A DNA stretch of 64,000 bases from Eublepharis macularius (lineage: Eukaryota; Chordata; Lepidosauria; Squamata; Eublepharidae): the NCBI RefSeq assembly GCF_028583425.1, contig NC_072795.1, positions 8,083,001 through 8,147,000 of the forward strand, in the 5' to 3' direction. Below, piece by piece: positions 11,401 to 53,005 of the stretch. The stretch's first letter is position 1. The number at the start of each line of letters is the position of its first letter. A program made the translations under genes and the position numbers. The notes under the pieces are model-generated. The model made no database searches, had not been told where the DNA came from, and worked only from the letters and a program-made list of their open reading frames with translations.

Positions 11401-14400
11401 GGGGGGGGTGTTGCTCAAAACAGAGGTAAAGCAAAAAGGAAGGCAAGTTGCTCACTTGTACAAACATTTGGGGGGGCTTATGCCCCAGGAAAAAACTGTA
11501 GTCAAACTGTGGGTGTGCATATTTAAGAACAAACCACACACTTTGGATAATAAGAACAACAAATATCTGTGTTGTGGGCCTGCTGGCTCTGGTAGAGGCC
11601 AGACGGACCTCCCTGGGGCCAGGGACCATCAGCAACTGCTTATTAGCTGATCAAAGTGACCTCCGGGGAACATATGCATATTCAGAGATCATTTTAGATG
11701 AGTAGCCATGTTGGTCCGCAGTAGAACAGCATAATTTGATTCCAGTAGACCCTTACAGAACAACAAAATTTTCAGGGTTTAAGCTTTCAAGAGTCAAAGT
11801 TTATCCTGAGTAAAAGGCAAAAGATTTATGCGATCTGAAGAGAAACCAGAGTCAGAGCTCCCTTCTTCAGATAAAAAAAACCCTGAAGATAACTGACTCA
11901 CGAAAGCTTACACCCTGAAAATCTTGATGGTCTCTAATGTACAACTGGGCTCAAATCATGCTGTTCAGAGATAAATTACTGATGTCCTTGCCTGTACCTT
12001 AGTGTCATTCCCCAATTAGCTACACACGACAGAACCTTTTTTACCTAGTACTTGGAACATGTACTGCAGGGTTTTTTTTATTTCAATCATGCTGGCCATT
12101 TAATCACAATGCAGTTGACTTATTGCCATTATAGGGCTTGGGGAATTCAATACACAATACAGCCCTTAAAACCCACTGGTAGTTTTTAGCCCAAGCCATA
12201 GCTGTAAGAGTCTACATGATAAAAGGCACCACTTTTGCTGGAGTTGTCAGAACATGCAGCTCCTTCCATCTCAGGAGTCATTGTTACTTCTTCACTCAGT
12301 AAAATAAAAGGCATTTAAAACTTCCGCGTCCTCATCCTCATAGTATGACAGATCTCTGCTTCAGAAGGAAGATGCTTCCCTGCATTATTTTCTTCTGTCC
12401 CAATGTATACATCAGTGTGACTTTCCGCATCAGAACCTCAAGTGAATGACCCAAGGCCTGATTAACTTTTCAAAAGCACGCTCCAGTTTACCTCAAACTT
12501 CCTTTAAGGCACAGTAATTGAAAATCTTATCCTCTGTAATCCCACACACACTGCTGTTGCATGTGATTTGGAAATCACAAGGCAGCAGTTCATTTTCAGC
12601 TTTAGACGAGGTGACAGAGAGACACACACAGACACCTCAGCATTTGAACAAAGCAGAAGTGCAGAAGGTGAACCCTGACTCTCATCAGTACTTCTTCAGA
12701 ATAAAAAAAGGATTCTCTAAAGACTACAAAAACACCTCAAGGGAGAGAAAGAAGCCTGCCACGTGTCTCAATGGTTTCCAGTAGAAAATTTAGGATGTTT
12801 CTTATGAAGCTTCAAAAAAAAAAAAAAGGTACAAAGGAGTTACATGCATACAAAGAAAAAATGCCTGAATCTGGAAAGAAAAACATGCAAGATCCGCACT
12901 GAGGTCAGGAAGGAATTTCCTCCCAGGCCAGTTTTACCAGGGATCCTGGAGGTTATTTGCCTTCCTCTGGGCACAGAGCAGGGGTCACTAACGGAGGAGA
13001 GAGGGGGAGATAGCTGTGAACTTCCTGTACTGTGCAGGGGGCTGGACTAGATGACCTTTGGAGTTACTTCCAGCTCTCTGTTTCTATCCAGCCAGCCTCT
13101 CTATGAGCACAGCACTAAAGCTGGTCATTGTCAAGCACTCATCAACATTTGACAAGTATTTTTATGGTATTTATTTTCCTGGAAAAACAAGAAAAAGATA
13201 CTGTAAACAACAGGATTGATGCTTCTAAAGTTGAAAAACAAACTAGCATTGTGAAATAGTATAACTAGCTTTTATTAAAAACGTAAGGAATTGTAAGTGT
13301 TTTAGGGTGAAATTTCCATAAACGTGAATATGCCTCTCCTTGCTCAGTTGCAAACTTCACATCTAATAAGCAAACTCCTTAATTTAGTGTCTGATTCCTT
13401 CTCCACCTCTATCTAGGACAGCTTAACTTGGATATTTAGGGTCTATTAGCCAAAGTTTGGAATCTGGTCTGATTTTTCTCTTATTTGCTATGAGGAGGTT
13501 TCAACAGACAGGATTTGGTGGCAAGTTGCCTGCAGTCCTTATTGACCATGGCTGCACTTAAAAGGAATGCAACTAACAACAGCAAGTGAGCCAGAAACAC
13601 TGGAGAATTGAAGAATCATAAGCATTGTACAGGGCATCTCTTGATGGACCAGAGGTGGGGCTTTGTAGGAGGCAAAATGCCAGGGCACCAAGAAGATCCA
13701 TCCGATTGCTTTTTAATTATTTAAAAAATGGGAAAGCAATGGATGCTTTAAAGAGGCAGCTGTATCCCAAAGCAAAGTATCATTATATCAACCTGCTTAA
13801 AACTTTTGCTGGAGTAATAACTGAAGCTCATAGGATTATGGAGGAATGCACAGTTCAAATAGCCCAACAAGTATTATTACCACAATATCAAGCATTCCAA
13901 ATTGACAGGCAACTTCTAGCTTATGTCTTTCTCTGTGTTTCTGTCCTCACTCTGTACTCATTAATAGTGTACCCCTTTGTAGCTGTGTGAAAGAACACGA
14001 CTTCTACTTTTATATAGAGAGTTAAACACCTTTGCATATATTTCTTTTTGCAGAAGCTTTCTTCACACTGCGGAATTTAGGTGCCTAGGTATTTAGGTTT
14101 TCTCCATAGGCAAGGTGCTCCATTAATTTGTTCAATTCCTCTTTAAGACATGCAAAGCAGTGACCGCCACCTTGCCTTCTGAAAGCAAATTTTGGTAAGT
14201 TAATTGTACATAAGTAGTAGTACGTAAGTTTTTTGCATCTTGAATCTACCGGCAACTGACTGCACCATGTGACCTCAAACGCCAATATTATGAGACAGGA
14301 GGAAGTAATTTCCCTAGCCACTTTATCTATACCCTTTATTGTCCACCTTAGTTGAATTTCTGAACTAAAAAGCCCTAAACGTTTTTGACTTTCTTCATAG

Positions 14401-17400: not shown

Positions 17401-20400
17401 TTTTGTCTAATACAGAGAGTTGAAGGGCATTGCTTGATAGCATTTGATGGAATATATAACACTGGGTGACGAACAAGTGATTGAAACTAAGATGGTACCC
17501 CCGGTGCTGTTAGGTCCAGTGATTGTGTTGTTGGAATGAATACAGGGATGGAGTTGGCATTTTGGTTTATTGCAGGCCCTGGTTCCAGAGTCTGTATCCA
17601 TATTGGGAAGTGCATTGTTGTGAGTAAGGAGTTGCTTGCGGTGAGGGGACAGGGAGTTGTCTGTGGGCAGGAAAAGGCAATGCCTGTGAGACAACAGTAT
17701 CATTATTGCAGGTCATTAATGATGCACTGAACTGGTTTGAGCTGGGAACTGTATGTGACTACCAGTGGTTTTCTGTGGTACTGTACCCCTCCCACCCTCT
17801 GCCTGGATTATAAGGAGTCCTTCCTTTTTCTACTTCTTGTATCTGATGGAAGGTACTGAGCTTCAGAAGCTCATACTTTGGAAATCTAGTTGGTCTTTAA
17901 AAGTGCGACTGGACCCAAATTTTTCTCTTCTACTACAGACCAACACAACTACTCACCTGAAACTATCCTATAATACTGTTTTAGAATGAGTCGAACGCTT
18001 CTTAAGATTTTTCACACAAGATGTATAATATGAAAAAGTTTAAGAGCTTTTTCCATTTTTCTAATAGAAAAATAGGGAAAATTGAGGAGTACTAAAAATC
18101 ACTTATGAAATATTTTCTCTTGTCGAGTAAGAAAAACTTCACCTAACAAAGCATTTCACTCGTTCCAAATGTGAAACACGGATAAGTTTGAGGACTTTTT
18201 CCATTTTTCCAATAGAAAAATTGGGAAATGAGAGAAGCATTGAAAAAAACTCTCATATTGTAGACATACAATATTTAAGATTTTTGTTTAAAAATAATTT
18301 TGTCAACAATTAATAAGCTGTAACATGTTTAATAATAATACACTGTCCATAATACACTGTTAAACAGTTCAGTGTTTTCATAAAGTTAATACCCAAACAT
18401 GCCAGCAGTCCTACCTATTGTGTGCCTACATTTAAATTTCCCCCCAAATTTCCTTTCCCTTCCACCCAAAAAACCCTCAGTTTTTCCTCCAGTTTCAAAA
18501 CTTCTGGAAATTTTGCACCTCTAATCTATCATTTTAAAAACAGGGCATCTCACAGTTTTTTTCTGAAAATGACCTATTTTCCCACCTTGTACTATTTCCC
18601 CCCTTTCATAACTGATTCCATGGACACAGGGAGACAGTCACCGTCCAGTATCTGCTCAATGTCAGTACATGAAAAAGCCATTATATCTTTCCACACTTAT
18701 GAAAGACTATAAAAAATGTTTGAAGGATCATTGCAGAATAAGCTCCTACAACCAACAAGAACACCTGTCTAGTTAATTGTGGTGTACGTTTATCCACCTT
18801 AAACACAATAGAAATTATGATCTTTTGAATTCAAGTTCCTAAAAATATCTGACATTTGTTTTCAAGACAGCTCAAGCGTTGCCCTTAGAAACACTGAATT
18901 GGAAGCACAAAGAAGAACTGAGCCTTAGTTTTACATATAATTCCCAGGTGACACAAAGCAAGATACCAGTATTGTTGCTGAGGGCTAAGAAGTCAGGTTT
19001 ACCTGTCTTGTTGAGAGAAAAACACAAGCATACTAAGCAATACTCTTCACACTTTAAGATTCTGAAGTGTGGGAGTCAATTTCTTTTCACCACTGAAGCA
19101 TGCATACAAAAAACACATGGCCGATGAAAAATCCATGTGGATTTTGCAGGAAACATCTGCCAACAAGCTGCCAGAACCCTGCTAGTTCTTGCTCATTTAT
19201 GCTTCCTGTAAAACCCACATAGAGGAATTTTAATTCTAACGCAATCATTCCCAGGCTTATTAATTCCACAGAGGAAAACAACATCCAAGCCAGCCCTTCA
19301 CACTTACTGTGTGTACATTTATCCAGATAACTGGGGTTTAGTTGTACTGCAAGGAGCTTGCTCTCATGATTATTGAAAGGCACGGCTTTCCCTGCCAACA
19401 TTTCCACATTAGCCATGACACCTTCTGTCATGCCAGGCAGAATATAAAGATGGCACAATGCTTAGTCTTGCAGGACTTCTGCCATTCAGTTCTTCTTACA
19501 GGGATGCCATGCACGAACTGGCCACACCAACAGTGAAAGTGGGCGACAGCAAAAATACAGAGCGAGTGAACAGATGAACTGTGAGGATTTCTCAACCATT
19601 TTTTCCCCATAAGCTCCTCAAGTCACAAGTTTGGGCTAACATTCTAGCTCAGTCCACTACTGCCCATTTTAATCCAGGTTTCAGAATACGACGTCACAGA
19701 AACTGAGACAACAAAGACATGCCTAACTTATCACAGGTAACGACGATCCGACTGCCCCCATCCATCAACTCCCAAGCCCTAACTACAGTTCCAATTATAC
19801 AGAGATGGAAGAGAACTGCCTTGCACGAAGTTGTTTAAGGAATCCACAGCTGAGCTGGGATCACATTCTTGCCGCTACATCAAACTGTCCATCTTTAAAT
19901 AGCTCTATGTATATATGGCAGAAGGCGTACAATCTTTTCCTGAACTGACTCCAGTTGATGGGGGGGAAATGCACTTTTAAGACCCACAGGTGGGACTGAA
20001 AGGAACCATGTTCTCGTTTTGCACACCAATGTAAATTATCAGGGCTTTTTTTCTGGAAAAAGAGGTGGTGGAACTCAGTGGGTTGCCCTCAGAGAAAATG
20101 GTCACATGGCTGGTGGCCCCGCCCCCTGATCTCCAGACAGAGGGGAGTTTAGATAACCCTCCCCTCAGTGGCGCGGAGGGCAATCTCAACTCCCCTCTGT
20201 CTGGCGATCAGGGGGCGGGGCCACCAGCCATGTGATCATTTTCAAGAGGTTCCGGAACTCCGTTCCCCCGCGTTCCCCCTGAAAAAAAGCCCCGGTAAAT
20301 ATTGTAATGACTTCAGGTAGAAGAGAGAACCAGTGGAATAACGGAGCATTTCAAACACGTACATTATTACAGAAATCAACAAGGAGATCTGGTTTCAAGA

Positions 20401-23400
20401 GCTGCAAAAATCGGTTAGAAATTTGTACTAAGAAGTAATCCCCAGGCCTATACTTCAAAGAGCTATTCTTCACATTTCATAATACTGAAAAACAAAGGAC
20501 ACTGTAATTTTGGGAGAAAAGCGCACTCATAGGTGATAAGTAACAAGCATTTCTGCCCACCCAGACACTCCTCCACACACCTTTAAGGCAACTGCATTTA
20601 TCGAGGAGCAATCATTGTTAACTGCTGGAAAAACCACTCGGTCCACACGGGTTGTTGGATGTTTTGTGTTTCGCATCAGCCTTGGCCTTTGGGTTAGAGC
20701 AGTGGCTAAGCAAGAGAGCACCTGCTTTGTATTTCCTCTGCACCAGCAGAAGGTTCCAGCTTCAATCATTAACACCTCCAATTAAGTAAGTGAGTGAAAG
20801 CCCTCTTACCAGAGACCCTGTGGCGCCACTATCACAGTAAACGACTGGTCAAACTTGGTATGAGGCAATTTCATGTGTAAAGTTGTGAAGTCACCACGAC
20901 ACTATCTATTATTTATTATCACTATACAGAAGAAAGTACAACTTTCCAACCTATTTTCCAAAAGCATGCTTTAAAGTTACCTTTTTTTTTTAATAACGGA
21001 AATGAAAATGTCGCCTGCCACTCACGACATGCCTCAATGTCCAGATAAGATTACCGTGCTGTGCAGCATGTGAGGCTGACTTACTAAGTAGTCTTCAGAA
21101 AGTGCTCCAGAATACAGCGGGCAAGATGCCAACCACAACACGATATAGTAGGTACTCTTCTCCAGTGCTTCAGAATCTGTATCGTTTTCCAATTTGCCGC
21201 TCCCAGGCACAATGAAATGTCTGGCGTTGACCATTAAGATCCTTAACGGTCTGGGACCACAATTCCAGAAGGACCGCCTTCTTTCACGTGAGCCTGCTGA
21301 GGAGTGGAATGTCCCAACAGACCCATCTCCAGGTTCCCTTTAGAAGGAAAGGCGGCGTCGACTGCAGAAAGGCCTCTTCATTAGATTCACCCTACAACTG
21401 AATAGCTAGATGCTTTCTGCGATGTGGCAGGCCAAAGTCTGTCCTGGTTGTTAATGTCTGGGGGCTGAATTTCTCTCTTTGGGTCTCTTAGCTCTGCTAT
21501 AGCTTCGCTGGTTTCTTTTTATGTTATGTTTACCCTTATCCACGTCCAGGTGAGCCTGATCTCATAAGATCTCAGAAGCTAAGCAGGATTGGCCTTGGTT
21601 AGTAATTGGATGGGAGACCTCCAACGAAGACCAGAGTTGCAGAGGCAGGCAATGGCAAACCACCTCTCTCAGTCTCTTGCCATGACAACCCCCACCAGGG
21701 GTCACCCTAAGTCAACTATAACTTGAGGGCAGGATTTCATTGTTCACCCTCATCCATTTTACTTTAAAGTGCTGTGATACTTTTTAACCATTAATTGAGC
21801 CTCCTCAACTGTCCATGGGCGCAGCATTTCCCAACCTGTGGGTTGGGAGGCCTGTGATCAGAAATCCCAGGCTTTTGAACTTTTAGTGATTTTTGCATGG
21901 TCTGGCTTTTTTTTTTTAAGTGGGTCACCTTATTAAATAGCTTTGGATTTCTGGGTCGCCGTAGCACAAGGCTGGGGACAACTGTTAAGAGAAAAAAGCA
22001 AGCAAGAACGCTCTTAAAAGAAATGTACGCCTATTCTGTTATTTTCCACCATCCAGCCTCAGTCCTACTACCTCCAAAACTTTTAATACTCCTCTTTTGT
22101 ACTTACAACTGCACCCCCCCATGGCCCACTGATATCCAACAGGAACCAGGGGCTGGGCGTGTAACACAGCCCTCAGAACAGCAGATGACATTCAGCACAC
22201 TTGCACTGATAACAAACAATCTCTTCCAGCAGCTTCAGCCAGTTTTACTGAGCAAGTTAACACATCATTGTGTAAACACAAACTAGGGCATAAGGCAATC
22301 AGAAACGACGGCAGACCAGGGCTACAGTGGCGGCTCAAATCCTTGGAACTTGCAAAAATAGAGCTGCCTGCCAGCAACACGGCTGCTGTTTCCAGTAATG
22401 TGACAATGGAGTGCTGCTATTGGGTCATGGATTTTGCCCTGTGGGCCAATGGCAGCAGCCTTCTCTAAAAGCTACCAAGCAGCTCAGTATCACTACCTGC
22501 GTGTGAATGCAGAAGGCAGGCATCTCGACTTCCCGGAACAATGACAGTCACATTCTGCTGAGTCACTGACTGCTGCAGGAAACGCAAGACAAACAGCGGC
22601 AAGCACTGCAAGCAGACCAGGCACTTGGAAGGACGCCCTGCTGTGCAGGCTTCTCTTTTGTAGGCCACTTGCTGTAATGGGACACCAGCTAAAAACCAAC
22701 TGGGGGGAAAAAACCCCAAGAAACTTCCTGTTGATTCGTTTTAACTTGCTGCTTTGTTCAGGAAAAAAACACACAAGCCCAAGTCTTGCAGCACCTTTAT
22801 CCCCAACTCCACCTTCTATCAAAACCTTCAAAGCAGCACATTCTTTTTTGAAAGCGGGAGAATTCCTAAGAGATCTGCCATCTAGGCACACACCAGATCC
22901 AAGCCAGCTTATCTTCAGCAAGGCTGCTCCACCATGTACAGTTGAGGAGGAAGAGGAGGAGGCCTCAGGTTCAATCCCTGGTATCTCCATTAAAAGGATC
23001 AGGTGGTAGGTGATGTGAAAGGCCGCTACCTGAGATGAGGGGTGTGCACCAAAGAAAGACATTCCTGGAAATCTGGGTTTCAGGGAAAGAAAAGCAAATC
23101 TGGGATTCCTGAAATCTGGAAAAGATTCTCTGATCTGCTTAAGACAGATCAGAGAATCTCAGATTTATTCAGCCATTATTCCCTATGAGGAAAACTATCC
23201 AGGGGCTATTCAGGGGAGGTCATTTTTCAAGCAAACTCCACCACATTTTCAGGGAACCTATTCTTGAATGTCTCCCCCTCCACCCCAGTTTCAGGAAAAT
23301 TGGGCCCCAAGATCCAATTCTCTGAAAAGGTGCCTCCAGCCATACTCCATTGTTTCCTCTGGGGCTAACATTTCCAAACAGGTTCTCGGGCAGAAACACA

Positions 23401-24790
23401 AAGGGACCAGGCTGCCAGGGGCCAAGGGCATTCCCAAATGCAAGAGGAAACCCAGTAGAACTGAAGTGAAGCAAGGGGACCAACATCAAACCAGAGAAAT
23501 ATGTCAAAACAGAGAATTCCACCCAAAACAAAGTGAGACAAGAAGAACCAAAGTGAATCAAGGGGACCAACATCAAACCACAGAACCATGTCAAAACAGA
23601 GAATTCCACCTAAACCAAACTGAAGCAAGGGACACTGTCGCACCTTGGCCCAACAGAACCAGTGTTACTCACAGAAGCCAGGCGGACAAGAAGAGCTCAC
23701 TCCCCTCTCCCTACCTCACTCCCTCCCCAATCTCACCCCCTCACCTCACCTTTGCCTCACTCCCCTCCCTCCTTTTTTTGGGGAACAAAGCAGGAGAAAC
23801 CCAGGAAGGAGCCAGCCAGAGGCTGAAACCACATTTCCCAGATTTACCCAGATTTATCCAGCGGTCTGGAGCTGGGTTCCCAAATCAAATCCCAGATTCT
23901 CTGATTTGATTCAGGAAAGCCAGCTTTAGTCAGTTCAGCAAAAATTTGGCCTTTTTTCTGGAATCCCTGATTCATATTCAACACCCATACATGAGACCAT
24001 GGAGAGCCACTACCGGTCTGAGTAGACAATACTGACTTTGATCGCCCAAAGGTCTTCATGTGTGTGTTCCTGTCCTATCATATTACACTTTAAGAGATTA
24101 ATAAATGTATTGTAGCATAAGCTTTTGAGGGCCAGAGTTCCATCAGGTTAACTCATACCAGAAACGCATGCAAGGGTCAAGCGTAGTTTTGGTCAGACCC
24201 ACCAATCACGCAGTGACACAGCCCATGCATCAACAGCCCCCCGTGCAATACACAGTATCTTCACTAAAGGCTCTCAAACACAGGGGTACAGGGGTACCAG
24301 GGTAGGAGCTGTCATTCCTGAGCAAAAATGGACCACTGTATAAGACAGTTTGTTAAGTCCTTCCCCAGAAGCTACGCACTAAATCCCCACAACACGGAGT
24401 ACAGAAATATACGGCGTGGCCATTAATTTACTTCTGGCAGGCAGCACGGAAAAACTACAACGTTTATGGGAACATGCCCTCGCCCAGAAAGCTCTCCTTC
24501 ACCCAAGCCACTTGCAAGCATTAAGCAGATTACACAGCATTATTACAGCAAAGCTTGATCATGAAGTTGATGCAGCAAAATGAAAGCGACTATATTATGT
24601 AATTTAATAAGCTGTCACAGCGGCCTGAAGCGAGACCGGGTCGGGGAGCGCAACGCTCTACCTTGTGTTTAACTTGCCAGCACTTCAGCCCATCTTGTTC
24701 TTGGGGTTGTTCCAGGCTGCTTCTGTCCCTCACGTTTCTATACCCAGGACTGGGTATGACATACTCTTTTCCTAGATCGATATCTTTCAT
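2215..24790 (-). CDS. ABCC5: ABCC5 (MRP5), ATP-binding cassette exporter, 5' half of coding region, spliced
   Basis: Five coding exons on the minus strand (24662-24790, 8218-8375, 7849-8004, 6779-6926, 2215-2448) join in one phase to give residues 1-275 of a protein that in human has about 1437. All junctions have GT donors and AG acceptors with pyrimidine-rich tracts. The peptide follows mammalian ABCC5 from memory, for example MKDIDLGKEYVIPSPGYR at the N-terminus, LKPIRTTSK, HESSDVTCRR, and LTWALNYRTGVRLRGAILTM in the first transmembrane domain. ABCC5 is a plasma-membrane ABCC transporter exporting cyclic nucleotides and other organic anions (family knowledge). The window covers the cytosolic N-terminus and the first membrane helices. 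The nucleotide-binding domains lie off the left edge. The frame is intact throughout. It is head to head with EIF2B5 about 31 kb away. Identity is secure; exon limits are read from splice signals and not from transcripts. Confidence 0.96.
2449..6778 (-). other. ABCC5 intron 5, no gene seen
   Basis: No conserved peptide and no repeat family that I can name with confidence. It holds a run of 15 G at 4923-4937 and an AC/GC-rich simple repeat near 6551-6590. Open frames here are short and do not resemble known proteins. Confidence 0.6.
6779..6926 (-). CDS. ABCC5: ABCC5 exon 5
   Basis: 148 bases: one base completes an arginine codon, then 49 codons from LERLWQGELQ to TQLAGFCGP. The stretch LIISIVCLMVTQLAG is a hydrophobic transmembrane helix of the first membrane domain. 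The acceptor is TGCTGCTTCAG and the donor GTAAGTAC at 6778. An upstream foldback repeat lies in the preceding intron, about 90-335 bases from the acceptor. Confidence 0.95.
6985..7262. repeat. Foldback element in ABCC5 intron 4
   Basis: Arms at about 7018-7076 and 7185-7245 are inverted near-copies; the inner 40 bases (ACATGGCTGCCTCTGCCC with CTATCGGGGAGACGAGTCGG) differ at only one or two positions. The loop is CG-rich. The minus-strand reading of loop and arm gives an acidic peptide (SDEEEAESAGGYRSE), which may be chance. Confidence 0.65.
7849..8004 (-). CDS. ABCC5: ABCC5 exon 4
   Basis: 156 bases complete codon 96 (K), then encode HPHPIDNAGLFSYMTFSWLT and continue to HESSDVTCR plus two bases of an arginine codon. 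The MTFSWL motif is the conserved entry to the first transmembrane domain in ABCC proteins. The acceptor is CTGCTTATAG and the donor GTATATG at 7848. Confidence 0.95.
8218..8375 (-). CDS. ABCC5: ABCC5 exon 3
   Basis: 158 bases encode residues 44-95 plus two bases of codon 96. The peptide begins MECQNALEAAARAEGLPLDF and ends LKPIRTTS, then AA joined to the next exon. The acceptor is TCTCTAAAGCAG and the donor GTAAGT at 8217. It belongs to the cytosolic N-terminal segment before the first transmembrane domain. It lies 16 kb from exon 2 but only 213 bases from exon 4. Confidence 0.95.
9252..9380 (+). mobile_element. Short Penelope-like element with hammerhead-like head (family A), 13-bp TSD
   Basis: Bounded by CTAGATCTCAGAG at 9239-9251 and 9381-9393. 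The element starts just upstream of the core CTGAAGA (9259-9265), then a 5-6 bp hairpin (GAGAGC at 9267-9272 with the 3' strand at 9277-9282), GAAA (9283-9286), a 3-bp stem III with a TTAT loop, and TA at 9295-9296. The rest is the shared tail with TTGGTTAGTCTTAAAGGTGC and the end GGCTAACTCCTCTGGAT. No coding sequence. Confidence 0.65.
10143..10640 (-). repeat. CR1-type LINE 3' region
   Basis: On the minus strand this ends CTTTTTTATGTTCTTATG after GGACTAGATGGACTGCTGCT, the 3' signature of CR1-like elements in reptiles. Upstream, the disrupted translation keeps pieces of the CR1 ORF2 C-terminus. 5' truncated; limits approximate. Confidence 0.6.
11560..11690 (-). repeat. L2/CR1-like LINE fragment
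   Basis: It matches part of the 43.6-44.0 kb copy (CCTCCTTGGGGCCAG against CCTCCCTGGGGCCAG, then GGGGAACATATG). Short and diverged. Confidence 0.45.
11697..11960. mobile_element. Foldback Penelope-like element, diverged
   Basis: Left: GAGTAGCCATGTTGGTCCGC with a minus-oriented tail. Right: CTGACTCACGAAAGCTTACA at about 11899-11918 and a plus-oriented tail CTTGATGGTCTCTAATGTAC. It matches the foldback layout of the dated copies but is more diverged; the ends are approximate. Confidence 0.5.
12885..13087 (+). repeat. CR1 LINE 3' end
   Basis: It carries the sequence GTGCAGGGGGCTGGACTAGA followed by TGACCTTTGGAG and CCAGCTCTCTGTTTCTATC, the typical 3' end of amniote CR1 elements. Only the untranslated end remains. 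Confidence 0.65.
13625..13990 (+). other. Unidentified 121-codon open frame in ABCC5 intron 2
   Basis: ATG at 13625 opens 121 codons to a TGA. The predicted peptide has a basic N-terminal half (RRQNARAPRRSIR), a stretch IMEECTVQIAQQVLLPQYQA that looks helical, and a hydrophobic C-terminal segment LLAYVFLCVSVLTLYSLIVY. I do not recognise it. It is on the strand opposite to ABCC5, with no splice or poly(A) evidence. It may be chance or an old element. Confidence 0.2.
14090..14520 (-). repeat. L1/Tx1-like LINE, ORF2 C-terminal fragment (tentative)
   Basis: The minus-strand peptide contains GLELVSYEESQKRLGLFSSE and LPKFAFRRQGGGHCFACLKE. The second resembles the cysteine-bearing segment of the ORF2 C-terminus in L1-clade elements. 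No reverse-transcriptase core is present. Confidence 0.35.
16950..17705 (-). mobile_element. Penelope-like retroelement, GIY-YIG endonuclease region (broken fossil)
   Basis: On the minus strand one open stretch has VIYSIKCYQ, and a neighbouring one has LCKRINGHKSDIKIRN, GELFNLPGHFITDLSVAVLK and HEMAKIEFIWN. These are typical of the C-terminal GIY-YIG nuclease domain of Penelope-like elements (RxxGHK..I, P-G-H-F/S-D). The region is broken in more than one place and has no flanking reverse-transcriptase motifs that I can name. A plus-oriented tail piece of family A type lies about 140 bases to the right. Confidence 0.7.
17845..17968 (+). mobile_element. Penelope-like element tail piece
   Basis: It reads CTGATGGAAGG, then TTCAGAAGCTCATACTTTGG, then AGTTGGTCTTTAAAAGTGCG and TACTACAGACCAACACAACT. 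The order and motifs match the tails of families A and C; the hammerhead-like boxes are degenerate. Confidence 0.5.
20033..20295. mobile_element. hAT-type non-autonomous element (family A)
   Basis: It starts CAGGGCTTTTTTTCTGG at 20040 and ends GAAAAAAAGCCCCG. The arms carry GGTGGCCCCGCCCCCTGATC in opposite orientation, so much of it is foldback. Flanks GTAAATTAT and GTAAATATT suggest a worn 8-bp target duplication. A cleaner copy lies at 46084-46278. Confidence 0.65.
21546..21745 (+). repeat. 5S-rRNA-derived SINE
   Basis: The head CTCAGAAGCTAAGCAGGATT and TTGGATGGGAGACC are the 5S rRNA internal promoter blocks (A box and C box). The body then reads GGCAATGGCAAACCACCTCT to the end GAGGGCAGGATTTCATTG. 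This matches the 5S-Sauria type known from squamates. Too short and diverged to be a 5S gene. Confidence 0.8.
22940..24055 (+). repeat. tRNA-derived SINE (type 4) split by a DNA element
   Basis: The left piece 22940-23036 (CAGGTTCAATCCCTGGTATC to GCTACCTGAGAT) and the right piece 23991-24055 (GAGACCATGGAGAGCCACTA, TGAGTAGACAATACTGAC) are consecutive parts of one SINE. Other copies are at 53400-53645, 60755-60870 and 61785-61965. Confidence 0.7.
23037..23990. mobile_element. Non-autonomous DNA element of about 950 bp (family unresolved)
   Basis: It interrupts a SINE. The outer ends GGGGTGTGCACC and AACACCCATAC look like short imperfect inverted ends, and both flanking parts are rich in GGAATCC/CTGGAAATCTGG-like motifs in opposite orientation. 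Inside, 23466-23525 and 23553-23611 are near-copies with an 87-base period. The 213-codon open frame in it is repetitive, has no known motif and is not called as a gene. Confidence 0.5.
24105..24165 (-). mobile_element. Penelope-like element piece
   Basis: The minus strand has CTGATGGAACTCTGGCCCTC followed by AAAAGCTTATGCTAC, a degenerate head of family A. The tail is short. Confidence 0.4.
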
Positions 24791-25445: not shown

Positions 25446-25924
25446 ATTTATTCAAAACTCTTCATTAAGCAAGAGGCACAAGCTAACTGTTCTCAGCAAT
25501 CACAGTGAACAAAGATGGGTCACCAATGCCTCTGTTTTCAGTCCCTTCAGAATCCTTCAGCCTCATATTAGAGACATAACGATCTGGAAAAATTAAGGGT
25601 GCTTCAGGGTGCACTGGGCTCCCTCCACATAGAGCCGCTACATTAGGAAGTACCTTTTTTGAGTACTTGCTGATCTATCTCTACTGTTGCTCTTGTCCAA
25701 CATGCCCCAACCACAGTACGACAATGACCTACCAACTTCTTACCCTTTCCTAGAAGATGAACCTACTTCCCAGGCAGACCTCTCAAAGGAGCTTTACCGC
25801 ATCTTCCTTTTTATTATCTTCATTTATTACCTTCATTTGTAGCCTGCCTTTCTTATCTAAACTTGAGATGGAATATGAAAAACAGTTCAACCATAGTATT
25901 TTAAAAAGTGGACTACAATCCACA

Positions 25925-26030
25925 CAAACTTATGCTAGAATAAAGCTTTCCCTGTCTTTCAGGTGCCACAAGCCATGTTTATTTTTGCTGCAACATACTA
26001 ACACGGCTGTCCCTGTGAAGTTACTACTTT
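25925..26030 (+). mobile_element. Penelope-like element tail piece
   Basis: It has AACTTATGCTAGAATAAAGC, then TTTCAGGTGCCAC and GCTGCAACATACTAACACGG. This is the tail order of family A without the head. Confidence 0.45.
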
Positions 26031-26315: not shown

Positions 26316-27117
26316 TTTCAGTCACAAGGACCAACAAATCAAGGCACATACAGGAAAAATGAGCAGCACACATTGATTTTGTCTGTGACCACTTTGCCCT
26401 AACAGTTCACCTGAGATTTTAACTTGCACTGTTCACTAGTAACAGCAGGTTCACTGCATTAAACACACCTCATGCCGTGTCAAGAACATGGTGTAACTAA
26501 TACAGTGACTCTGCTAAGACGCATACACACCTGCCGTAACCACTCTTTTGTATTACCATGTTCTCAAGCTCTTTTGGTTGTTTGTATTCTCCCTCTCTTT
26601 TCAAAAGGTCACAATGTCACCTTGGCCCAAAGTCATTACATTTAACACCTCTAAGGCAACTGAACAGTTTTTAGGGCATGGTGACATTATTACACCACGA
26701 GATAACGATCGAATGGAATTATCTCAGCCTGCACAAGCCAGCAACCTGCGTCCACTGCAAAGAGCCACAAACCTTGGGCAAAACACAACCCTTCAAATTA
26801 ACTGTTGAAAAAGGGAGTCGGCAGACCCATTTTCTTAAAATGCCAACTCCTCGCTTATCGGCTCTTTTCACTGCAACTCACCCAGGGTATTTTCTGCCCT
26901 ATTCACACCAACACCTCTTCCCTTACCGGACCCGGGAACGTTTTGTGTTGGCCAAAGGAGGGTTCTGCATCCTCCCTCTACTGCCAGATCATGTTGCAAT
27001 CCTAGCTATTCCTTCTTTTGCAGCACCCTCTGCAGGGCCAATTTGTAAACAGCACAGAAATGTTTTAACAGTGAGAAGCTTCCTTTTAAGCCACCATTTC
27101 AGTCAGAGAGGAACAAG

Positions 27118-27285
27118 ATTTTTAGGGCAGACGCTTTCGAGAGCCAGATCCCTTCTTCTCCCTTTATCGGAAGAAGGGACTTTTGACTCCTGAAAGCTTA
27201 AAACCCTTGAAAAAAATCTCTGAGGTGCCACTGAACTCAAATCTGTTCTGCTGCAGACCAACACGGCTACCTACCGAAAACTAAT
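27118..27285. mobile_element. Foldback Penelope-like element, diverged
   Basis: Minus-oriented AGACGCTTTCGAGAGCCAGA faces plus-oriented CTCCTGAAAGCTTAAAACCC. The tail has GAGGTGCCACTGAACTC and CTGCAGACCAACACGGCTAC. Ends are approximate. Confidence 0.45.
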
Positions 27286-27504: not shown

Positions 27505-27625
27505 CAGGTCGATAGCCGTGTTGATCTGCAGCAGAACAGCAAGATTTGAGGCCAGTATCTGCAGAAGGGAGCTTTAAGCTCATGCCCTGAAAATCCAGCT
27601 GGTCTCTAAGGTGACCGTGTAGGTA
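27505..27625. mobile_element. Penelope-like element piece, short foldback
   Basis: It begins GTCGATAGCCGTGTTGATCT in minus orientation and turns at about 27570 into TTAAGCTCATGCCCTGAAAA in plus orientation. It lies between two LINE 3' tails (27447-27500 minus and 27681-27730 plus). Confidence 0.45.
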
Positions 27626-28899: not shown

Positions 28900-30260
28900 C
28901 TAACCGCTCTGCTGCTTTCCAGAAAGCAGGCCAGAAGTAGAAAACTGGGACATAAATATGTTTTATAAATAGAAAACTTGAAACAAATATATTTTATTTA
29001 TCTATTTGAATTTTTGCAGCAGCTTTTCCAGAGTTCAAAACAGTTCAGCTGAGGACTGACTAATTAATATTGACACAACAGAAACATGTTTTTTTTTAAA
29101 AAAAAATCATTTGGAAAACAGATTATCTTCTTCCATCCAGCGACCTGGAGGCTCAGAAAGTTTTTTTTTTTTTAAAGATACGGTACAGTCATAAAAATGG
29201 CAACAATCAAATCACTATCAAAACAAGCCATAAAAATATCATAAAACATACACCGAACAGCCTCAAGTAATACTGAAGAACACAATCCTAAGGCGAGAAA
29301 AATAAACGTTTGGGCCTGGTGCCTAAAGGATGTTAGAGTCCTCAGGGAGCTAACAGCCCTCTCTCAGGCAAAGAGGGGGAGAGAGTGATGGACCAAGGTT
29401 ACTCGGAAAGCATCACTGCAAAGTGAGGATATGTAGCTGGGTTCCTCGGATCCCAGTGCATGTCTTTTTGTAGGGGACAGTCTTCCAAAAGTGGAGATGT
29501 ATGATTTGGAGTGGTCCTAAGATTGTTTTGGGGTGCAGCTCCCCCCAAGTTCCTGCATGTGCTTTTTTCCTAGGGGGAGGGGGGGACTGCACTTTGGAGT
29601 TGGCTAGCACAAGAACTAGCATCAGTCCCCTTGGAGGGCACAGCTTATTTCAATAAGACATATGTATTGTATATATTTATGACCACTATGGAGGGTATTT
29701 GTCTAGTTATGTTAAATTATCTGCAATAGATGGTATATTTTGATGATTTTCTTGAGCTGTGACTCATTTTTGGAATGTGTTTGATGAAGGGGAAATTGTG
29801 ATTGCATAGTTGTGGCAAAGTGTATTTCCACATAGTTTTGGTGGTGATGTACATTCCCTGATTGTCCTTCATGTGTAGAGCTCTACTTTGTTTATTTCAA
29901 TTGTGAGTGAAGGGGCCTCTTACAGATCCCTTGGAGGGTATGGCATGTGGTGGTCAAAATGTTATTTTCCAGTGTAGGGAGCGCACAGCCATTCAAATCT
30001 CCTTCCAAATGAAAGGTTCTTGGAGCCAACCCAAATAAAAGCTCTTTGCGCTGGAGCTAGTGGTTGGACAAGCAGGGGACAGCCTCCAGGGTGCTGGGAG
30101 GCACATGAGGGCATATATCACGTTGGAGGATGAGCAGCTGTAAGAGCCAGAGATTGTGTAGCTGACAAAATTGTGCACTCCACCTCTTTCATGACTTTTG
30201 CAACTGATTTACTCCCCCCTCACCACCTATACATCTCTGGCCACTTTCTTCATACCCTCC
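28900..30260. other. Intergenic, nothing named
   Basis: No conserved peptide and no element recognised with confidence. Contains short poly(A)/poly(T) runs near 29091-29106 and 29159-29175. Confidence 0.5.
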
Positions 30261-30261
30261 A

Positions 30262-30392
30262 TGCATCTGACAAAGAGTGCTGCGGTTCTCGAAAGCTTAT
30301 GCTACAATAAAGTTGGTTAGTCTTAAAGGTGCTACTGGACTCTTTACTATTTTGCGACTACAGACTAACATAGCTAACTCCTCTGGATCTAT
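30262..30392 (+). mobile_element. Short Penelope-like element (family A)
   Basis: Same tail as the 9.3-kb copy, ending ACTCCTCTGGATCT. The core reads CTGACAA at 30267-30273, so one normally invariant position is changed, then a hairpin, GAAA and GCTTATGC. It is directly followed by a CR1 3' end at 30393. No clear target duplication was found. Confidence 0.6.
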
Positions 30393-30578: not shown

Positions 30579-32197
30579 TCACAGGAGTATTACCATGTGA
30601 CATGTTAATACATTAAGTATTGTGGGTACACTGGAAACAATTAAGAAAAATCCCCCAAGAAAGCTATCGAGGACGTCCCTAAGAGGAAGTAGATTTGCTT
30701 GTTTCCATTACATCTGCCAGGAATGGGCACAATCACGTCTCAGGAGGCAGTTTTCTAGAACAGTCTCTACTCAAACGAGCAGTGCCAGGACATTTCTGCC
30801 ATTAGCTCTGCTCCATGTATGTCCTGTGGTTGCTCACAGGGCACGTATATTTTCCTAAGGAACAGCCTTGCCATTGTGGAAACTGTTATTCTCCCATCAG
30901 GGAAAAACAAGCAGAGCCTTCGATTTTATCGTGGGCAGCCGATTATCTTTCAGCTCCGCTTTCCAAACCTTCTACAACATTGGATGCAAGCCCAAGGGTG
31001 CCTGTCCTAGGATAACCACGTCCACATCAGTGCATACAATCCAGAGGTCTTCTGGTGAGGCATTCCAATACAAATGTATGCAAATCCATCCCTCGCCTTA
31101 TCTCCGTGTTATATATTGCTTCGGGTGCACCACAGACAGCCCAAGGAGGAGCTACTGCAAGACTCATTTTAAGATGTGTGTGGCCTGCTGAAGCCAAGCA
31201 TAAACAAAAAGGAGTCCCAAAGTGCCTTCATAACTAGCATGTATTAAGAGTACCAGCTTTCCCAGACCAGAGCCCACTTCATCAGTTGCACGAAATATAT
31301 CCTCGGTCGACAGGCACGTATAACAAACAGACGTAGCAGGAGACGAAACATAACTGGTTCACCCCTTTTCTTTTTTAATTGCTGTGCTTGAGGAATTGGA
31401 TACTAAGCTTGTTTTTAAGAGTCCCATTGATTTCGGCTGCGCTGCCTCCCAAATAACTGATTTATCAGGTACCATTCCCACGCTTCAATTCCAGATTCCC
31501 ACGCCTTAGAGATGCTTTACCTAATCCTCTGCAAGGGTCTAAAAACAGGTTAGGAGAAAGGGTTGCAAAACATAGCCTTGGATCAAAACCACAAAGAATC
31601 CGTCCTCGAACAAGATGCCAGTGAGAGCTTTAAGCAGAGGCCTGCCTTGTGGTTTGAGCGTGCGGTTTGACCATATTTCTGGTCCTCATGGGACAGAGAT
31701 GTTTCTGAAAATGCTCATACCCCTATTCAAGAAACAGAGATGCTTTTACTACCTTTCTTCACAATCTCTAGCAACTTTTTTTCCCCTGTTCCTCTATGCT
31801 TCTCTTCCTGTCACTGTGCTGATCTTTGCAAAAACAAGATGCCGAAGCAACAACACAAGCAAAATATTGTGCAGAATCTGGACTTATTCAGTCTGGGGTT
31901 TCTTGATACAAAGCAGGAGCTATCCTTGCCAGGGCCAGTCCGCGGTAATTTGTTGCGTGAAGCATGGAACACCCTTCACCTTCTTGTTCTGTGTGGCTGG
32001 ATCTAAGTCAAGCCTCTGCGTCACTGGGCCGTGCCAAAAGTGGACGTTAGTGCCTTCCTGCGTGGCTGAGGGTTGGAAGGGAGCAGTGCCCCTGAACGCC
32101 ATCAGCACCCTTCTGATTGTGCCTTGACAAGCAGTTGTTAGGTAGCTTGGCCTAGGTACTGAACCTGACCCTTGTCCACAACCTACTGCTCTTGATA
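30579..32197. other. Intergenic, nothing named except one Penelope-like piece
   Basis: Apart from 31215-31300, no repeat family or gene is recognised. A 170-codon open frame at 31615-32127 lacks known motifs and is probably chance. Confidence 0.45.
31215..31300 (-). mobile_element. Penelope-like element piece with hammerhead-like boxes
   Basis: On the minus strand CTGATGA is at 31285-31279, then AGTGGGCTCTGGTCTGG and GAAA at 31261-31258, then GCTGGTAC. The stem II strands are only partly complementary. The box order agrees with the other copies. Confidence 0.4.
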
Positions 32198-32359
32198 GGG
32201 TTGCCAACTCCAGGCTGGCAAATTCCTGGAGATTTGGCGGTAGAACCTGGGGAGGGCAGGGTTTGGGGAGGGAAGGGACCTCAACAAGGTATATTGCCAC
32301 AGAGCCCACCCTCCAAAGCTTGCCATTTTCTCCAGAAGAACAGATAGCTGTTGTCTGGA

Positions 32360-32552
32360 AAATAGTAAAGACTCTCGTAGCACCTTTAGGACTAACCAAC
32401 TTTATTGTGGCATAAGCTATCGAGATGCATCTGATGAAGAGAGCTGTGGTTCTCGAAAGCTTATGCTACAATAAAGTTGGTTAGTCTTAAAGGTGCTACT
32501 GGACTCTTTCCTATTTTGCAACCACAGACGAACGTGGCTAACTCCTCCGGAT
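32360..32552. mobile_element. Foldback Penelope-like element (family A) with best hammerhead-like core, 12-bp TSD
   Basis: A minus-oriented partial tail is joined to a plus-oriented head and tail. Flanks CTGTTGTCTGGA (32348-32359) and CTGTTGTCCGGA (32553-32564) form a target duplication with one difference. The core has CTGATGA (32431-32437), one extra A, a 6-bp stem II (32439-32444 with 32449-32454, TGTG loop), GAAA (32455-32458), a 3-bp stem III closed by TTAT, and TA at 32467-32468. The element lies inside a hAT-like repeat. Confidence 0.7.
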
Positions 32553-32571
32553 CTGTTGTCCGGAGATGAGG

Positions 32572-37289: not shown

Positions 37290-37681
37290 TAGGGTTGCCA
37301 AGTCCCTATATCCTCCCAGTGGGAGGGGAGGGGACCTGGCACTTACCTCTTTTCTGTCGCATGCTTCTCTGACAAAGAGAACTGTGATTCTCGAAAGCTT
37401 ATGCTACAGTAAAGTTGGTTAGTCTTAAAGGTGCTACTGGACTCTTTGATTATGCTTCTCTTTGTGAGTGCTTCATGTGCGCACACGGTGCGTGCATGAC
37501 GATGTCCCTTCTGGACTTGACATCATCACACCAGTGATTCAGCCTGCAACAACGTCATCTTTAAAAGTGATGTCAGTGGTGTCCGCTAGGAGTGTGCCTG
37601 CGGCGCACGTTTCTGGGATGTCTGCCAGTGGTAGGTGATCTCCAAGGGGCTTGCCACCTCCTGTCAACGGGGCAAACCCAT
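37290..37681. mobile_element. GC-rich hAT-like element (family D), 8-bp TSD, with nested insertion
   Basis: Flanked by TCAATTTG at 37282-37289 and 37682-37689. It starts TAGGGTTGCCAAGTCCC and ends GGGGCAAACCCAT. An 81-bp Penelope-like piece is nested at 37371-37451. Confidence 0.65.
37371..37451 (+). mobile_element. 81-bp Penelope-like element (family A), 10-bp TSD
   Basis: Bounded by ATGCTTCTCT at 37361-37370 and 37452-37461. It begins at the GA of the CTGA box, so the 5' end coincides with the hammerhead-like core. The CT before it belongs to the flank. The hairpin, GAAA and GCTTATGC are kept, followed by the shared tail. It interrupts a GC-rich repeat (37290-37681). Confidence 0.65.
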
Positions 37682-42388: not shown

Positions 42389-42560
42389 TCAAGATGGGTA
42401 GCCGTGTTAGTCGGTCTGTAGCAGTAGAAAAGAGCAAGAGTCCAGTAGCACCTATAAGACTAACAGAATTTGTGGTAGGGGAGGAGCTCATGAAAGCTCA
42501 TTCCCTACCACAAATTTTGCTAGTCTTATAGATGCTGCTGGACTCTTGCTCTTTTCTACT
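42389..42560. mobile_element. Foldback Penelope-like element, 13-bp TSD
   Basis: Bounded by ATTAAAACCCAGA at 42376-42388 and 42561-42573. The left half reads GGTAGCCGTGTTAGTC and onward in minus orientation; the right half is its inverted copy in plus orientation. The centre carries CATGAAAGCTCATTCCCTAC, a degenerate form of the GAAAGCTTATGC segment. No protein is encoded. Confidence 0.65.
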
Positions 42561-51735: not shown

Positions 51736-51867
51736 AATGAAGGGGGGCGGGGATTGCAGGGAAGCTATCGCTCTGGGAAGCAGGTGAGATGTGATTTTCA
51801 TACCTCCAGTCTCCATATTCCTGTATCTCAAAAATTAGCTTCGGGTGAGAGCAGCATGTGTGTTAGA

Positions 51868-52015
51868 ATCAAAAAGAGTCCAGTAGCACCTTTAAGACTG
51901 ACCAACTTTACTGTAGCATAAGCTACAGTCTTAAAGGTGCTACTGGACTTAAAGGTGCTACTGGACTCTCTTCGTTTTGCTACTACTGATTAACACGGCT
52001 AACTCCTCTGGATCT
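51868..52015. mobile_element. Foldback Penelope-like element, 12-bp TSD
   Basis: Bounded by ATGTGTGTTAGA at 51856-51867 and 52016-52027. The left half is the minus-oriented tail up to TAGCATAAGCT; the right half is plus-oriented with part of the tail present twice, ending ACTCCTCTGGATCT. The hammerhead-like centre is missing at the junction. Confidence 0.65.
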
Positions 52016-52139
52016 ATGTGTGTTAGACTATCTTTTGTATTCTTTTTTGCTTCTGGTGCAACAAAGCCTAGTGCATTATACACCTCATCTGTTTCCTTCC
52101 CTTTGTCCAAAGAGTTCAAGGTGCCGTACATACAGTTAT

Positions 52140-52360: not shown

Positions 52361-52881
52361 CTTCAAAAGGGGAGGCGTGTGGGTCTGTAGTAGAAGAGCA
52401 AGATTTGGATCCAATAGCACCTTAAGGACCATCTAGATTTCCAGGGTATGAACTTTCAAGAGTCAGAGCTCCCTTCATCAGATACAAGGGACAAAGGGAG
52501 CTCTGACTCTCAAAAGCTCATACCCTGGAAATCTAGATGGGAGCCAGTTTGGTGTAGTGGTTAAGAGCAGCAGGACTCTAATCTGGAGAACTAGATTCAA
52601 GTCTCCACTCCTCTGCTTGAAGCCAGCTAGGTGACCCTGAGTCAGTCACAGCCCTTTTAGAGCTCTCTCAGCCCCACCCACCTCACAGGGTGATTGTCGT
52701 GAGGAGAATAATAACTCACTTTGTAAATCGCTCTGAGTGTGGCATTACATTGTGGTATATAAATAGAATGATATTATTATAAATAAATAAAAATAGGCCC
52801 TTGGCAGCTATACAAATCAATGTTGTTGTTGTTGTTGTTGTTGTTACATGGTCTTTAAGATGCTACTGGACCCAAATCTTG
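52361..52881. mobile_element. Foldback Penelope-like element (family C) split by a SINE, 13-bp TSD
   Basis: Bounded by CACTTGAGGCTAG at 52348-52360 and 52882-52894. The left half is minus-oriented, the middle palindromic (TCAAGAGTCAGAGCTCCC facing GGGAGCTCTGACTCTCAAAAGC), and the tail ends GGTCTTTAAGATGCTACTGG at about 52851-52870. A type 1 SINE (52541-52848) interrupts the second half. Confidence 0.6.
52541..52848 (+). repeat. tRNA-derived SINE (type 1) inside a Penelope-like element
   Basis: The head AGCCAGTTTGGTGTAGTGGT carries a box A-like motif. The middle has CTCCTCTGCTTGAAGCCAGC, then the conserved tail with TATAAATAGAATG and a GTT simple repeat at 52822-52848. It lies between two parts of the same Penelope-like unit. 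Confidence 0.8.
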
Positions 52882-52894
52882 CACTTGAGGCTAG

Positions 52895-53005
52895 TATCAG
52901 GTGGGTAGTCTGGCAGAACAAAATTCAAGTCCAATAGCATCTTAAAGAACAACGAACTTTTCCGGGGTATAAGCTTTCATGAGTCAAAGCTCACATTGTC
53001 AGGTA
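52895..53005 (-). mobile_element. Penelope-like element piece (family C)
   Basis: On the minus strand it reads CTGACAA (53002-52996), a short hairpin, then GAAAGCTTATAC (GAAA at 52978-52975), then the tail ending in CTATTGGACTTGAATTTTG. This is the same order of boxes as the other copies, with changes in the core. Confidence 0.5.

Follow-up and report, generated by a model that had tools for sequence, protein, structure and literature searches.

Non-coding units of Eublepharis macularius that look like solo Penelope-like leaders, with 5' ends most likely set by a transcription start beside a hammerhead-like fold

The closest described systems are Penelope-like elements (PLEs) and small hammerhead-bearing retroelements of animals, and what is said of them here follows the excerpts of the cited papers that we drew on. 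Poseidon_Ac (PAc) is a PLE of the green anole whose purified protein cuts and extends both strands (PMC11167929). Reverse transcription (RT) by PAc begins at two adjacent internal sites, which explains the genomic tail of 30-40 bp, and hammerhead mutants leave in vitro insertion unaffected (PMC11167929). In a PLE of the rotifer Adineta vaga the inverted leader (pLTR) is 37 bp shorter than the direct one and overlaps it by 15 bp, and palindromes at rotifer PLE junctions were interpreted as self-priming (PMC3846280). Minimal type I hammerheads of PLEs were described by Cervera and de la Pena in 2014 and by Lunse and others in 2017, and a stem III of one pair is the minimal form described for PLEs (both via PMC7761336, PMC6155905, and PMC6466107). 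Metazoan retrozymes are described as having type I hammerheads and circular RNA intermediates (PMC7761336). Among the titles listed in literature searches on Penelope, hammerheads, and reptile non-autonomous elements, with few subscription papers covered, none deals with the unit family described below, and the titles listed for the motif letters are unrelated.

The window analysed is a stretch of 64,000 nucleotides of E. macularius, and the genome searched comprised 2.24 Gb in 72 contigs. An earlier note on this window had named three short retroelement copies (A, C, and D in Table 1) with target duplications of 10-13 bp and a common box order, and all of this held when coordinates and sequence were re-read. 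The units are non-coding in the copies read, as that note had said. It had missed that copy C is composite, with an inverted partial unit in front of the direct one, and it had missed the longer copy B altogether. As a reference for unit positions we used a 264-bp unit from one tandem locus with two units (L060); a position p in this unit corresponds to window position p + 32289 in copy C, and BLAST aligned unit 136-257 with 32425-32546. In this unit the upstream part is promoter-like and contains TATATTT at 107; ATGCATCTGA begins at 136, the hammerhead-like fold takes up 138-177, an 8-bp helix pairs 191-198 with 237-244, and the 3' end lies near 260-264.

Table 1. Positions of units and their parts in the window (position 1 is its first letter; TSD, target-site duplication).
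Feature	Position	Strand	Details
Copy A	9252-9380	+	direct unit from unit 137, preceded by two extra bases; exact 13-bp TSD CTAGATCTCAGAG at 9239-9251 and 9381-9393
Copy I	11697-11957	-	older-family foldback, internal insertion
Older direct copy	17841-17959	+	nhmmer
Partial copy, weak	24095-24145	-	nhmmer, 25.3 bits
Old direct copy	25901-26012	+	nhmmer; stem II different yet paired
Older-family foldback	27106-27272	+	nhmmer; 27106-27158 minus, 27166-27272 plus
Partial copy, weak	27557-27613	+	nhmmer, 22.5 bits
Copy B	30216-30388	+	longer; includes promoter-like upstream region
Old direct copy	31181-31288	-	nhmmer
5' TSD, copy C	32348-32359	.	CTGTTGTCTGGA
Copy C	32360-32552		inverted arm, then direct arm (head-to-head foldback); 12-bp TSD with one mismatch, CTGTTGTC[T/C]GGA
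Inverted arm, copy C	32360-32424	-	65 bases, tail-less; reverse complement of the unit between the 3' strand of stem II and the upstream RT start (site 2)
Direct arm, copy C	32425-32552	+	unit-136 A (inferred transcription start) to downstream RT start (site 1)
Revised minimal hammerhead-like fold, copy C	32427-32466	+	coordinates re-read, covariation
Stem I, copy C	32427-32430/32463-32466	+	
CTGATGA box, copy C	32431-32437	+	extra A at 32438
Stem II, copy C	32439-32444/32449-32454	+	
GAA, copy C	32455-32457	+	
Stem III, copy C	32458-32461	+	single pair; predicted cut between 32462 and 32463
8-bp helix, copy C	32480-32487/32526-32533	+	GTTAGTCT/AGACTAAC, span 32480-32533; one mismatch
3' TSD, copy C	32553-32564	.	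CTGTTGTCCGGA
Copy D	37371-37451	+	tail-less, end near RT site 2; 10-bp TSD ATGCTTCTCT at 37361-37370 and 37452-37461
Copy F	42389-42559	-	foldback, older family; 14-bp TSD at 42375-42388/42560-42573
Copy E	51868-52015	+	foldback: left inverted arm, then truncated direct arm with tail; 12-bp TSD ATGTGTGTTAGA at 51856-51867 and 52016-52027
Copy G2	52370-52538	-	older-family foldback
Older direct copy	52904-53004	-	nhmmer

In the window, nhmmer found 21 unit stretches, which we grouped into 15 loci, six of them head-to-head foldbacks. This density is higher than that of 20 sampled 10-kb stretches elsewhere in the genome (16 unit stretches in 200 kb). The pattern CTGANNA-stem-GAAAGCTTATGC occurs four times in the window against 0.00 times in 100 dinucleotide shuffles; the bare boxes CTGANGA..GAAA occur 11 times with 6.29 expected (sd 2.80), which is not significant, 9 of 100 shuffles reaching 11. 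Outside the unit family, window positions 21534-21646 match 5S rRNA at 39.2 bits (gathering score 38), perhaps a 5S-derived repeat.

Genome-wide the family yields tens of thousands of matches. The pattern ATGCATCTGANNAAGAGARCTGTG has 24,233 matches in the genome and none in the control; these counts include arms and segmental duplicates and are not numbers of independent insertions. Among the matches listed, groups with repeated spacing at G000:C1 ~4.7-6.7 Mb suggest segmental duplications that inflate the raw counts. At G000:C1:11786747-11786914 four foldback-junction matches on the same strand follow each other at an exact spacing of 47 bp, apparently a small satellite built from the hammerhead region. 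The 21-base pattern had eight matches in bacterial contigs (L001-L008), where about two would be expected by chance in 257 Gb by our estimate, and none was found in viral contigs.

The earlier note had proposed that the copies start at a hammerhead-ribozyme-like core, and that the copy at 32431-32468 has all boxes together with a 6-bp stem II. Both the boxes and the stem were seen on re-reading, as was the single extra base (A) that separates CTGANGA from stem II. Where that note saw no clear stem I, and a 3-bp stem III (AGC/GCT) with a TTAT loop, a redrawn fold gives a different assignment. GCAU in front of CUGA pairs with AUGC to form stem I (GUAU/AUAC in many older copies), and this AUGC had been assigned to the loop and the 3' arm of the former stem III. 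What is left for stem III is one A-U pair. The architecture of a hammerhead-like core and its covarying stems thus stand, but the placement of stem III does not.

Covariation was scored on 21 unselected sequences of several families, taken from 23 clean rows after L022 (deletion) and L033 (near-duplicate) were omitted. At the stem I pair 139-176 the bases are U-A in eight sequences, C-G in seven, U-G in two, and unpaired in four, and double changes occur in four of the six pairs of stem II. The A-U pair of stem III is kept in 21/21, so that no covariation can come from it. For the whole revised fold, none of 500 shuffles reached the observed paired cells, doubly changed cells, or covariation score, while 15/500 reached the number of doubly changed pairs and 61/500 the number of pair types. 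With stem I alone, 8/500 shuffles reached the paired cells and 9/500 the covariation score. When the 3' partner of stem I was slid by +3, doubly changed cells were equal (9) and doubly changed pairs were 4 vs. 3 in the true register, with paired cells at 42.9% vs. 77.4%. RNAalifold predicted stem II alone from the same alignment, and the support for stem I is therefore that of a test of a named structure. The stem III of the earlier note was rejected: its covariation lies at shuffle level (185 and 186/500), and in 14 unselected older-family sequences its outer pair is present in 3, its inner pair in 2, and its middle pair in 12. An earlier good score for stem II together with that stem III was due to stem II (85.6% vs. 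62.1% of cells paired). The proposed check for paired changes accordingly came out in favour of stems I and II and against the former stem III. In old copies pairs are lost, as decay would give.

The extra A (alignment column 15, between A9 and stem II) is present in at least 90% of the 21 sequences. The spacing is thus non-canonical, which is why we call the fold hammerhead-like, and catalysis may be weak or absent. The Rfam check that had been proposed was negative: scans of three stretches gave no hammerhead match at E <= 10, and in the whole window no such match reached the gathering score. As in the minimal PLE hammerheads, there is a conserved core with stems I and II and without a real helix III, found in pLTRs and in thousands of dispersed copies; unlike them, as far as the descriptions in PMC7761336, PMC6155905, and PMC6466107 that we drew on go, the gecko fold has the extra A between A9 and stem II and a stem I of 4 bp. 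Among the first 100 matches listed, the CUGANGA...GAA core reads CTGACGA in 24 and CAA or TGA in 71; CTGACGA may be the source form, CAA and TGA being what CpG decay would give. Copies that extend upstream read CTGACGA in 21/30 rows vs. 24/100 of the start-reaching ones listed (the sets overlap), and by CpG decay these longer copies look younger.

That the 5' ends of copies cluster near the core, as claimed before, was borne out by local alignments. Alignments begin at unit 136-137 in 9/25 unselected and in 21/59 selected stretches, the latter from loci chosen by likeness to copy C, hence query-biased, and with inverted arms included; the count omits L059-L065 and also L009, which duplicates the window copy. 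The A at unit 136 lies 29 nt below the first T of TATATTT. In window copy B a TATA-like TATACAT at 30228-30234 is followed by CCCTCC and then by the start A at 30261, a spacing of 33 nt from box to A.

The earlier note went further and held that the ribozyme had set the 5' end of the RNA, that is, that the hammerhead cleaves a transcript whose cleaved 5' end is then reverse transcribed, so that copies begin at the ribozyme. The core and its paired stems are real, and the 5' ends do lie near the core. The cluster is nevertheless upstream of the core and not at a cut. The predicted cut lies between unit 173 and 174 in the revised fold, or between 179 and 180 in the fold of the earlier note, and unit 136 is 38 nt above the first and 44 nt above the second. 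None of 84 alignments has its start at 172-176, no more than two bases from the revised cut, or at 179-181, the site of the other cut; 177 and 178 are each the start of a single alignment. Genome counts agree. All 24,233 matches reach ATGCATCTGA, and 6,281 of them (26%) go on with CC, the unit's own next bases, a drop in count of 74% over two bases at unit 136. At the cut between 179 and 180 the count goes from 11,888 to 10,209 on adding TA, a raw drop of 14% over two bases, and at the revised cut it goes to 7,893 with seven more bases, a raw drop of 23%. By our reading, both raw drops would reflect base changes and subfamily variants. A template cut at either site would also be without the core, which the described copies have. 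Cleavage as the main route is already contradicted and we regard it as highly improbable, though it may account for a minority of several per cent. The earlier note had staked its reading on paired changes in the stems and on 5' ends gathered at the cleavage site: the stems do show paired changes and the ends do gather, but elsewhere.

What most likely sets the 5' end, judging from these positions and counts, is the start of transcription and not cleavage. A fixed RNA end in all copies was rejected because 26% run on upstream, window copy B among them.

The one tandem of 264-bp units carries two hammerheads, and according to the passages cited from PMC7761336 animal retrozymes probably rely on PLE machinery. 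The gecko units resemble the metazoan non-LTR retrozymes of that paper in being small non-coding hammerhead units probably moved by PLE enzymes. Tandem units might likewise self-cleave to monomers, circularise, and be reverse transcribed. Among the matches listed, though, only one direct tandem of 264-bp spacing occurs. A circular template is expected to give permuted ends, whereas the starts gather at the A below the TATA box and the 3' ends gather at the tail; in contrast to the circular intermediates of retrozymes, the gecko units have linear, clustered ends. We consider a retrozyme route very unlikely.

With a transcription start as the preferred 5' end, we turn to the 3' side. Target duplications were present in 24 of 42 hits with a full 3' end, with a median of 12 bp; 23 of the 24 measure 9-14 bp, the last being an 18-bp self-match in L025, and a swapped-flank control gave 16/420. 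At the flanks of copy B (30216-30388) a target duplication was looked for and none was found. Arm lengths and the end of copy D point to two internal RT starts that leave an optional tail. Of the 21 foldbacks in which it could be measured, 20 have an inverted arm that ends 33-46 nt before the 3' end of the direct arm, and in one the difference is 57 nt (median 40). As 18 of the 21 came from loci selected for likeness to copy C and three were unselected, they give the stop position but not the fraction of foldbacks. RT site 2 is bracketed by the 8-bp helix, in which unit pair 194-241 is swapped from A-U to G-C in older families (8 and 6 of 19 unselected); the helix is probably a protein-binding or priming hairpin.

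According to the part of PMC11167929 used here, PAc has 85-92 nt from the hammerhead cut to the RT start, and in copy C the distance to 32552 is 90 nt from the revised cut or 84 nt from the cut of the earlier note. The gecko units and PAc share a hammerhead just above the internal RT start, two RT starts, and a tandem leader. They differ in that the PAc open reading frame begins at stem II, whereas the gecko units are without coding capacity in the copies read, and in that the probable RNA start of the gecko units is the 5' edge of the hammerhead.

In 8,506 of the 24,233 start matches CAG stands in front of the start (by our expectation ~1/64 by chance), and in 39% of start-reaching matches neither CC nor CAG does. 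CAG before the start is the signature of a foldback whose inverted arm reaches the start or ends in the stem II loop. Among the first 100 matches listed there are 11 minus/plus head-to-head pairs, which overlap by exactly the six bases ATGCAT; four of these pairs are apparently a single segmental duplication, which leaves eight distinct ones. A variable position, R, has the same base in both arms of all 11 listed pairs, pointing to a single template RNA. By our reading, with T-run length and single changes ignored, the two arms share their variant class at RT site 2 in 15/17 scorable foldbacks. Arm identity is hardly higher within copies (median 94.2%) than between copies (93.7%), so that the case for a common template rests on subfamily variants only.

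The junctions of copies C, E, and F are not the exact palindrome overlap. That of copy C, CGAG/ATGCAT, is rare, and we rejected a stop of RT at the base of stem II because it has only 42 matches genome-wide vs. 24,233 start-reaching ones; its recurrence in 30 loci is a selection effect, since copy C was the query. In a foldback at L057:6353-6465, three bases separate an inverted arm that extends to unit 139 from a direct arm that extends to 136, whereas the arms of the perfect foldbacks listed overlap by exactly 6 bases. Over the foldback at 32376-32500, microRNA models of Rfam (mir-559, mir-6536, and others) match below threshold. A microRNA identity was rejected, the matches being below gathering score and explained by the hairpin shape; inverted copies of this sort could give hairpin RNA if transcribed.

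Similar junctions led the authors of PMC3846280 to argue, in the sections drawn on, for self-priming from the palindromes, and foldbacks in the gecko could arise if one cDNA snapped back and primed itself, or if the template were antisense. The shared R base in the listed perfect foldbacks and the agreement at RT site 2 fit such a course. Snap-back would be expected to leave a hairpin loop, whereas the 11 listed pairs consist of the exact 6-base palindrome without a spacer, and it leaves unexplained that the inverted arm ends ~40 nt early at the upstream RT site in 20/21. We hold it to be unlikely. As the overlap is the exact terminal palindrome and spacer-free, annealing of two separate cDNAs, one made on each target strand, is preferred.

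The comparison with the rotifer PLEs, within the excerpts of PMC3846280 at hand, otherwise shows much in common. The inverted pLTR is on the 5' side in both, with an overlap of 15 bp there and 6 bp in perfect foldbacks here, and it is shorter by the tail, 37 bp there and ~40 here. Junction palindromes and a TATA box with initiator in the pLTR are shared, and rotifer target duplications measure 8-10 bp. Unlike in the gecko units, the rotifer inverted pLTR flanks long elements, and copy numbers are low. The word hammerhead is absent from the text of PMC3846280.

The link to Penelope drawn in the earlier note was supported by the PLE-type tail, the inverted tail-less arms, and the target duplications, which are short and variable as in PLEs. 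Tandem leaders (L060) and inverted 5' leaders (the six window loci and genome-wide) add further PLE traits. Taken together, the tail, the tandem and inverted leaders, the duplications, the TATA-initiator layout, and the minimal hammerhead fold match PLE leaders. From their sequence the copies have the appearance of solo leaders (pLTRs) of a PLE, and there is good support for the view that the unit functions as a PLE leader does.

Short, non-coding, abundant units with target duplications could also be an ordinary SINE mobilised by a LINE. A poly-A or simple-repeat 3' end is absent from the copies inspected, no tRNA, 7SL, or 5S match at Rfam gathering score overlaps a unit in the window, and the tail geometry with tail-less inverted arms is a PLE trait. 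We see scarcely any chance for a SINE origin.

A PLE is expected to encode its reverse transcriptase and a GIY-YIG endonuclease in a single open reading frame. An autonomous parent of the putative solo PLE leaders with an open reading frame was not found. The genome holds GIY-YIG matches in open frames of up to 722 aa (L059 and L062-L065 were read), with C-termini such as PNGLNSEINFAVFL (L063). At five GIY-YIG loci of the 78 listed, the 350-1000 bp read downstream held unrelated sequence and no unit. Loci with such C-termini probably belong to another PLE clade, whose copies are fairly intact in this genome. A candidate full-length parent at C1:17985409-17988301, of which 801 bases were read (L061), was rejected: it is another inverted and direct unit with other sequence, and no PLE frame was recognised.

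The anatomy, covariation, 5'- and 3'-end positions, target duplications, and genome counts reported above are observations, and from them we infer a transcription start, a protein, a priming order, and a lack of cleavage. RNA polymerase II would start at the A of ATGCATCTGA, 29 nt below the TATA box, so that the 5' edge of the minimal hammerhead, with its GCAU/AUGC stem I, its stem II, and a stem III of one pair, would form the start of the RNA, and the 8-bp hairpin would come next. A PLE protein would nick both target strands ~12 bp apart and prime cDNA internally on the RNA, at two sites ~40 nt apart that flank the tail, and each cDNA would extend to the RNA 5' end or end early. A single cDNA would give a simple direct copy with the tail (A) or without it (D). 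When both strands are primed, the two cDNAs would become linked head to head, in many cases because the 5'-terminal palindrome ATGCAT lets them anneal, and the product would be a foldback with a tail-less inverted arm (C, E, and F). Most successful templates would not have been cleaved by the hammerhead. As a whole, this explanation, with solo PLE leaders, 5' ends set by transcription start, two-site RT, dual-strand priming, and palindrome-joined foldbacks, appears to us quite probable from the sequence evidence. For the further proposition that both-strand priming on one RNA is a regular in vivo route of PLEs, in which ATGCAT joins the cDNA 3' ends, we put the chances at about even. If it is true, the foldback would be a standard PLE product, and a hammerhead at the RNA 5' end need not cut.

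The integration footprints of the gecko units are unusually clear. With its tens of thousands of insertion ends, this single genome provides an in vivo record of template RNA ends. It speaks for templates that began at a transcription start and were not cleaved, in agreement with the in vitro PLE study PMC11167929 as far as its cited portion goes. Since the record also holds two internal RT starts and cDNA joining, PLE integration could be tested by simple sequence counts in any genome that has copies of this sort.
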